The translations under genes and the position numbers were made by a program. Positions 5,101-5,252 of a stretch of DNA of 64,000 nucleotides are shown here, piece after piece. Position 1 is the stretch's first letter, and each line of letters starts with the position of its first letter. The DNA is from Vibrio fluvialis (GTDB lineage: Bacteria > Pseudomonadota > Gammaproteobacteria > Enterobacterales > Vibrionaceae): contig NZ_UHIP01000002.1 in assembly GCF_900460245.1 (NCBI RefSeq), positions 372,001-436,000 on the forward strand. The letters run 5' to 3'. The notes under the pieces were generated by a model. That model was not told the DNA's origin. It was given only the letters and a program-made list of their open reading frames with translations, and ran no database searches.

Positions 5101-5187
5101 AAGCGTTTCTTGCCCGTCGAACCCACGCACCACCAGCGTGTCGTCCTCCAGACCTTCCACATGAAACTGATACTTTAACGTCGCCAT
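2161..5187 (-). CDS. vgrG3: Evolved VgrG spike with C-terminal peptidoglycan hydrolase domain (VgrG-3 type)
   Basis: 1008 residues. The first roughly 640 are the gp27/gp5-like VgrG core with its glycine-rich beta-helix. A Ser/Ala/Gln-rich linker follows. Residues about 736-815 resemble a peptidoglycan-binding domain (KGQEVESIQKAL, GSFGSTTERQVK, DGIVGQGT). The last 180 residues look like the T4-lysozyme/pesticin-type muramidase of V. cholerae VgrG-3: a candidate catalytic Glu near 840 (FIKELEG), then Thr near 859 and Asp near 865 in GVTIASGFDLG. The protein should tip the T6SS needle and cleave the target cell wall in the periplasm. A sigma-54 promoter lies just upstream and the immunity gene overlaps its end. 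Confidence 0.93.
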   Translation of the reverse strand: MATLKYQFHVEGLEDDTLVVRGFDGQETLSSERINGQPCHGFRYQLELASRLANLTPEMVVDKAAELTLYRDDMLVQRVNGIVRRFTQGDTGHHHTFYSLTLVPALERLSLRHNSRIFQLNTVPEILSILLQEMGINDYAFALTRDCAQREFCVQYRETDLDFFHRLAAEEGLVYSFIHEEGKHTLIFSDASESLPKLGEPIPYNTLAGGMIESPYISALSVHTQSEVSQTALQDYSFKKPAYSFAQQAVGTEMAYQQPNYEHFDAPGRYKDDVSGKAFSQIRLDYLRRNARTATGKSNQPLLRPGVKFDLQEHLDDTLNRDWLVVSVTSQGTQPQALEEAGGNGATTYANQFSLIPAHRTWRATPQAKPQVDGPMIATVVGPQGEEIFCDEHGRVKLYFPWDRYSNGDEHSSCWVRVSQGWAGSQYGMIAIPRIGHEVIVSFLNGDPDQPIVTGRTYHATNTAPYALPDNKTKTVLRTETHQGQGYNELSFEDQAGSEQIYLHAQKDFDGLIENDHTSVIKHDKHLTVENDRFTQIKNNQHLTVGGESRTKIVADSSIEIAGASQNKVAKLIAVQTGREISLKGGTKIVVEAGAEVTLKAGGSFVKVDAGGVHLSGSAINLNAGGSAGSGSSYGGKSALLAKDLVSLESPAELQQAAIQSTQVAGEANIVTVSELVAPVLGEGAQQQSASSQAASGSAVNSTQAENDVESTKEPRLKSDLLKPSETLNKLADREVASYKTGSKGQEVESIQKALIKLGFDLGTYGADGSFGSTTERQVKMFQQSYTPSHSTHPDYKVGKTDGIVGQGTLLGLDEALIDGWVYKHECKLMINFEFIKELEGVKKDGYVPDVKNSSSGVTIASGFDLGARSKSDLLALGLPQTLVDKLTPYLGYKKDEAVEFLAKNPLSVNEQELELLISKVKESETRRIVDLYNRTSKTTKFECLPWQAQTVIASVSYQYGYLPSETENFWKQAIEQDWSAMFNNLMKFGDKYPTRREKEAGLIKEIK

Positions 5188-5236
5188 CCTGCCATTCCTA
5201 TTACGTCACTGACTTCACTTTATGAGCCGGATATTC

Positions 5237-5252
5237 AGCAAGCTCAGTGCCA
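5237..5252 (-). promoter_or_regulatory. Sigma-54 promoter of vgrG and its immunity gene
   Basis: On the minus strand the sequence reads TGGCACTGAGCTTGCT, an exact match to the -24/-12 consensus TGGCAC-N5-TTGCW. The -12 GC lies about 50 bases before the vgrG start codon, leaving a leader of roughly 40 bases. The probable activator is VasH, encoded at 12342-13937 in the same cluster. Confidence 0.85.

Follow-up and report, generated by a model that had tools for sequence, protein, structure and literature searches.

A predicted VasH/RpoN promoter ahead of vgrG in the type VI secretion cluster of Vibrio fluvialis and a candidate VasH operator

Introduction

The stretch of Vibrio fluvialis DNA analysed here (contig NZ_UHIP01000002.1, positions 372,001 to 436,000; 64,000 bp, referred to as the window) carries a type VI secretion system (T6SS) cluster of the V. 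cholerae type. Its last two genes are vgrG and a predicted immunity gene, separated from the preceding vasL by a gap of 191 bp (vasL stop at 5379, vgrG ATG at 5187). A preliminary description of the window had pointed to a sigma-54 consensus in this gap, which raises the question of whether vgrG has a promoter of its own and, if so, which activator it would respond to. Our analysis indicates that the region 5187-5356 is very probably a complete sigma-54 promoter, served by RpoN and by the VasH protein of the same cluster, driving vgrG and the downstream immunity gene by the mechanism proposed below. VasH control of V. cholerae vgrG3 has already been reported, so that the vgrG promoter belongs to a known kind; what is newer is the VasH operator proposed here, with its geometry.

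Results and Discussion

The -24/-12 element upstream of vgrG

The element TGGCACTGAGCTTGCT is found 65 bp upstream of the vgrG ATG. Direct reading and a pattern search agree with the preliminary description that the minus strand at 5237-5252 is an exact match to TGGCAC-N5-TTGCW. The spacing is canonical: within TGGCAY-N5-TTGCW, 12 bp separate the start of the GG doublet from that of the GC doublet. With position -12 placed at 5238, the C of the second doublet, the spacing predicts a transcript start near 5226 and a leader of about 39 nt. TGGCACTGAGCTTGCT is the only exact consensus match in the window; shuffled windows had a mean of 0.13 matches, with at least one in 12 of 100. Over both strands of the whole genome there are 8 exact matches versus 9 for the reversed pattern, and therefore an exact match alone is at chance level. 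The perfection of the consensus, which had been used as an argument for the promoter, is thus real as a match and loses its force as an argument; what places TGGCACTGAGCTTGCT above chance is its position and its conservation.

Conservation was followed through vasL. A VasL search of 148 Vibrio genomes gave 30 loci (L009-L038), and a scan of named genomes gave 18 further vasL loci, 7 of them non-duplicate, for a total of 37 distinct loci. In 15 of these vgrG lies at most 400 bp from the vasL stop, and 14 of the 15 gaps include a -24/-12 site scoring at least 13.1, with dyads upstream; the scoring weights approximate published sigma-54 compilations. Shuffled by an order-1 Markov model, these 14 gaps, taken one by one, reach a score of at least 13 in 0.4-1.9% of cases. 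When the 14 loci are aligned on the site, T-G-G-C-A and T-T-G-C (TGGCA-N6-TTGC) are invariant, two positions of the spacer are kept in 12/14 and 13/14, and a few flanking A or T residues in 12-14 of the 14. This conservation across orthologous gaps takes the promoter beyond chance and supports the reading of TGGCACTGAGCTTGCT as a VasH-linked sigma-54 promoter of vgrG.

A dyad array in phase with the promoter

Aligning the vasL-vgrG gaps revealed a repeated dyad, GCAR-N4-YTGC, upstream of the -24 element. The V. fluvialis gap has three copies (GCAAGAAGTTGC, GCAGCTTCTTGC and GCAGATAGTTGC, from distal to proximal; Table 1), of the kind that also precedes the hcp genes, all within 5250-5380, the stretch in which a VasH footprint had been proposed. 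Single exact dyads are not enriched in the window (12 versus 11.3 expected), so only their clustering counts as evidence. A composite scan of the window gave scores of 28.3 for the vgrG promoter and 24.0 for a second array ahead of the PAAR gene, while the best of 20 order-1 Markov windows reached 22.7.

The array is conserved together with the -24/-12 site. All 14 vgrG loci have two dyads (at least 7/8 match) at gaps of 50-52 and 71-73 bp from the -24 element, where shuffling expects 0.0013 loci, and a third dyad at 90-92 bp is frequent. In six further vasL loci the downstream gene is hcp (L026, L027, L032, L037, L133 and L134), and a dyad pair stands between the two genes in all six. Two of them, L027 and L134, have their dyads at 41-42 and 63 bp instead, the nearest being about one helical turn closer, and consequently the same face of the helix is kept; in L032 they lie at 55, 75 and 96 bp. 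The upstream sites are in helical phase with the promoter at 52/73/92 bp in V. fluvialis, 41/63 in L027 and 42/63/83 in L134. The 16 remaining vasL loci, with neither hcp nor vgrG in the available DNA (158 bases only in the case of L129), have no dyad pair. Of the 37 distinct loci, 21 thus have hcp or vgrG downstream, with a pair ahead of the gene in 20; the 16 in which neither is found include none with a pair.

A site resembling that of integration host factor (IHF), TAACTCTTTGAAT, lies between the array and the -24 element. Such a site occurs 16-17 bp ahead of the -24 element in 7 of the 14 loci (0.033 expected). It is absent at this place in L018, L019 and five loci taken for the V. cholerae clade, L015-L017 by similarity and L030 and L031 because they match named V. 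metoecus and V. mimicus.

An activator-driven sigma-54 promoter is built in this way, with tandem dyads in fixed helical phase upstream of a -24/-12 element and an IHF bend either present or absent. From the sequence, its conservation, its geometry and its co-occurrence with vasH we infer the following mechanism. VasH, encoded earlier in the same cluster, would bind the GCAR-N4-YTGC dyads, two or three in number and spaced by about 20 bp, whose centres lie some 58-98 bp upstream of the -24 box. Bending of the DNA, in this species by IHF at 5269-5281, would allow VasH to reach the RpoN-polymerase at 5237-5252, and the ATPase of VasH would open the promoter. Tube, spike and tip, which are lost at each firing, would in this way be produced jointly, after expression of the structural operon has provided VasH.

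Dyad arrays elsewhere in the genome and across Vibrio

Each of the four hcp genes in this genome has a dyad pair upstream. Two of these genes have a strong -24/-12 site 129 bp before the ATG, and the other two a weaker one 55 bp before it. The vgrG promoter and the hcp promoters, a class known to need VasH, thus have this cis element in common. In the complete 4.86-Mb genome the pair pattern (two dyads 4-18 bp apart) occurs at 7 places and the reversed pattern at none. Five of the places are the four hcp promoters and the vgrG promoter; since the pattern was written after those five had been seen, the new information is that there are only two other places (C1:71431 and C1:704462), and these have no -24/-12 site nearby.

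Among the 148 Vibrio genomes, 37 encode a VasH N-terminal domain and 111 do not. The mean number of dyad pairs per genome is 4.9 in the former and 0.6 in the latter (reversed control 0.1 and 0.2), and at least three pairs are present in 28/37 vasH-bearing genomes versus 2/111 of the others, counts that include the present genome (G000) and the vgrG loci from which the motif was derived. Forty listed pair places were read, a part of the total that leaves aside the studied vgrG3 gaps and the known places of this genome. At 14 of the 40 the pair is followed after 41 or 51-54 bp by a -24/-12 site (score at least 8.5); next comes hcp or vgrG in 11 of these cases, a DUF4123 adaptor gene in one (L089, a single genome) and the end of the contig in two. 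Four other listed places have a -24/-12 site at a different distance (38, 44, 86 and 139 bp). This array geometry is present at 13/27 listed places in vasH-bearing genomes and at 1/13 in the others, the one being an hcp gene of genome G054. Another 17 places in genomes without vasH (two each in G011 and G097) have neither the site nor hcp or vgrG, which brings the frequency without vasH to 1/30. Four additional vasH-bearing genomes gave 16 loci, several of them overlapping; 11 are array-bearing promoters of hcp or vgrG and five are not.

The PAAR tip gene at the head of the cluster is also preceded by dyads, more weakly than vgrG, and by a weak sigma-54-like element, GGGTATACATTTTGCT (Table 1). 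Thirty PAAR loci were read, of which 15 share 83% identity or more with the query. Each of these 15 close orthologs has at least two dyads (at least 7/8) within 260 bp upstream, against 0.52 loci expected. In 11 of them the last dyad is followed, 40-42 or 52-55 bp downstream, by a -24/-12-like site; in four genomes (L170-L173) the dyads are present with no recognisable -24/-12 site. Of the other 15 loci, L183 has the full array, four have a single dyad (L177, L182, L185 and L188) and ten have none, one of these (L187) having little upstream DNA. In the V. cholerae clade the PAAR promoters have a degenerate middle dyad and were found by a looser scan and missed by the stricter array scan.

The presence of like arrays before all four hcp genes, before vgrG and, more weakly, before the PAAR gene suggests that the parts lost in firing are made together. 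We consider it reasonably likely, with less assurance than for the vgrG promoter itself, that two or three copies of GCAR-N4-YTGC about 20 bp apart, in fixed helical phase from a -24/-12 element, are the VasH operator across Vibrio and in one Salinivibrio. This operator would define one regulon of parts lost in firing, namely Hcp, VgrG, the PAAR tip of the main cluster head and, in one genome, a DUF4123 adaptor module. It would account for a separate control of secreted and structural parts, and the operator with its spacing rules would permit the prediction from sequence of which effector, tip and tube genes are switched on together in vasH-bearing Vibrio.

Weighing the VasH reading against its alternatives

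Several observations weigh against a VasH promoter and operator of this form. The orthologous loci share common ancestry and are not independent events, and the IHF-like site is in place in just half of the vgrG loci. In one locus, L021 (V. injensis type), vgrG follows vasL at 58 bp with neither promoter nor dyads, and another, L136, has a -24/-12 match scoring 16.7 with no dyad pair and no hcp or vgrG. The -24 or -12 box is weak in several arrays, those of PAAR and of two hcp genes in this genome among them. Fewer than three strict pairs are found in nine vasH-bearing genomes, and G054, a 3.1-Mb Vibrio genome, has an hcp gene with a full array (L112) and no match to the VasH N-terminal domain.

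A different arrangement, in which the -24/-12 promoter is real and the dyads bind another regulator, with VasH acting without this operator, is unlikely. HapR binds V. fluvialis hcp promoters according to the available part of PMC8018390. Comparison with the VasH protein gives 19 matches in this genome, most of them other activators. As vasH and the dyads are inherited together, their co-occurrence cannot tell VasH apart from a different regulator of the cluster. On the other hand, dyads about 20 bp apart in fixed helical phase with a -24/-12 element are what an enhancer-binding protein needs, and a scan of 18 cluster proteins recovers no protein of this type other than VasH. Its helix-turn-helix is largely kept in 16 other VasH proteins with overall identities of 42-96%. 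Binding of VasH to the dyads would therefore be the simplest reading.

Still less probable is a main role of the dyads at the RNA level, as a hairpin that terminates or attenuates transcription after vasL. Dyads 1 and 2 (5326-5356) are mutually complementary and can form a strong RNA hairpin, and the region 5290-5375 folds with -28.6 kcal/mol (z = -3.7; 0/200 shuffles as low). However, two similar palindromes side by side yield such a hairpin of themselves, and at other loci the dyads hold their distance to the -24 box while the best hairpins vary in place and partners. No U-run follows the hairpin, the terminator scan does not report it, and an intrinsic terminator after vasL was rejected on these grounds. 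A chance match, with vgrG being just the last gene of the main operon, is scarcely credible, for although the genome-wide count does not exceed its reversed control and L021 does show vgrG after vasL without a promoter, site and array together are kept in 14 of 15 gaps and the site alone is reached in at most 1.9% of shuffles of a gap.

Control of the immunity gene

The last two genes had been regarded as split off into a separately controlled unit, a claim that the present analysis does not establish. Since the terminator scan gave no hit in the vasL-vgrG gap, readthrough is possible; furthermore, the accessible text of PMC3857813 describes in V. cholerae a promoter inside vgrG-3 that drives tsiV3 independently of VasH. 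The immunity gene is, by this comparison, probably not solely under the promoter at 5237-5252. The product of 1781-2164 has no Pfam or NCBIfam match, and it is just its position, length and overlap with vgrG that fit the immunity role; a V. fluvialis tsiI2 with matching length and vgrG overlap has been described (PMC5371669).

Relation to known systems

The closest known system is vgrG3-tsiV3 (VCA0123-VCA0124) of V. cholerae, which has the same order of vasL, a vgrG with a lysozyme domain and an immunity gene. According to PMC4441509, in the part available and citing Kitaoka 2011 and Dong & Mekalanos 2012, VasH acts in V. cholerae on vgrG3 and the auxiliary clusters and not on the structural genes. 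The preliminary description had named RpoN and VasH as controlling hcp and vgrG3 there, of which the action of VasH on vgrG3 and the auxiliary clusters is what that text states. What is set out here in addition is the promoter anatomy, i.e., the -24/-12 element, the dyads, their spacing and the IHF-like site, the last of which the putative clade loci (L015-L017, L030 and L031) lack at this place.

The hcp promoters of V. fluvialis (tssD2_a/b/c) are VasH-dependent and have a -24/-12 element and an IHF site separated by a 16-bp interval, and IHF binding to the tssD2_a promoter was demonstrated by gel shift (PMC5963220, available sections); the need for VasH is also stated in the accessible portion of PMC8018390. 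The vgrG promoter resembles them in its -24/-12 element and IHF-like site, and all four hcp genes of the present genome have dyad pairs upstream. The sigma-54 sites described in the available sections of PMC5963220 are those of hcp promoters and not of the main-cluster vgrG, and this 2018 paper says there that specific VasH binding sequences had not been determined. The literature searched, whose coverage of the primary VasH papers is incomplete, includes no statement of the dyad motif, and the operator may already be in print. If the operator is as proposed, the PAAR tip and the DUF4123 module would extend the VasH targets named in the consulted parts of the cited work.

A likeness also exists to Sfa2/RpoN of Pseudomonas aeruginosa, a cluster-encoded activator that switches on H2-T6SS hcp/vgrG units elsewhere in the genome (PMC8855297, in the portion available, as for the following statements on Sfa2). 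Conserved or inverted repeats are noted there near RpoN sites. Sfa2 differs in that it also drives the main cluster and in having a single clear binding site 2132 bp from the RpoN site.

By its number, the V. cholerae gene VCA0122, described as encoding an 80-residue regulator in the available part of PMC3166118, lies between vasL and vgrG3. As the vasL-vgrG gap in L015-L017, taken for the V. cholerae clade by similarity, is 240-252 bp, an open reading frame (ORF) of this size would probably overlap the promoter array. Inspection of 13 vasL-vgrG gaps by eye recognised no shared ORF of at least 40 residues, and VCA0122 was not retained as a small gene conserved across them; that it complements partially in trans in V. 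cholerae, as reported in the same available part of PMC3166118, argues against dismissing it. If the VasH operator is correct, VCA0122 would probably overlap the array and the published mutant phenotype may need a second look.

Features of the cluster

The cluster has the gene order PAAR, VCA0106-like ORF, vipA, vipB, tssE/F/G, fha, tssJ/K/L, clpV, vasH, vasI, tssA, tssM, vasL, vgrG and, last, the immunity gene. The lengths of several genes match the figures given for V. fluvialis 85003 (PMC5371669). VgrG consists of the VgrG core, a peptidoglycan-binding domain and a C-terminal Pesticin-type lysozyme domain (PF16754, residues 831-979). The Pfam matches of VasH bear out the earlier statement that the cluster encodes its own sigma-54 activator. 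The coordinates are collected in Table 1.

Table 1. Coordinates of the promoter elements and genes in the window.
Feature	Position	Strand	Basis or remark
Sigma-54 -24/-12 element TGGCACTGAGCTTGCT	5237-5252	minus	direct sequence reading and pattern search
Dyad 1 GCAAGAAGTTGC	5345-5356	minus	92 bp upstream of -24 element; predicted VasH site
Dyad 2 GCAGCTTCTTGC	5326-5337	minus	73 bp upstream of -24 element; predicted VasH site
Dyad 3 GCAGATAGTTGC	5305-5316	minus	ends 52 bp upstream of -24 element; predicted VasH site
IHF-like site TAACTCTTTGAAT	5269-5281	minus	8/9 specified positions; 16 bp upstream of -24 element
Likely ribosome-binding site AGGA	5196-5199	minus	8 nt ahead of vgrG ATG; sequence reading
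vgrG (tssI2/vgrG3 type)	2161-5187	minus	PF05954, PF22178, PF04717, PF01471, PF16754; TIGR03361
Predicted immunity gene (tsiI2 type, 384 bp)	1781-2164	minus	4-bp overlap with vgrG
vasL, gene before the promoter	5379-6659	minus	ImpA_N
vasH, sigma-54 activator, AAA+ and Fis-type helix-turn-helix	12342-13937	minus	PF00158, PF02954; predicted dyad binder
PAAR tip gene (VCA0105 type), cluster head	27256-27540	minus	NF033420, PF05488
Second, weaker dyad array before PAAR gene	27646-27657, 27667-27678, 27689-27700	minus	dyad scan
Weak sigma-54-like element GGGTATACATTTTGCT	27590-27605	minus	40 bp downstream of nearest PAAR dyad

A promoter of the main operon under VasH ahead of vipA was considered and rejected, since the approximately 310 bp before vipA have no exact dyad; one exact dyad in the vicinity (26338-26349) falls inside the preceding ORF. 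A search of a plasmid collection with the promoter region gave no match. The nearest genome is that of V. furnissii, with a VasL 93% identical and a VasH N-terminus 97% identical to those of the window. In the V. metoecus and V. mimicus types (L030 and L031) vasL is apparently interrupted, its matches being in two pieces. A terminator-like hairpin, reported on both strands, is located between tssM (vasK) and vasL at 6683-6704.
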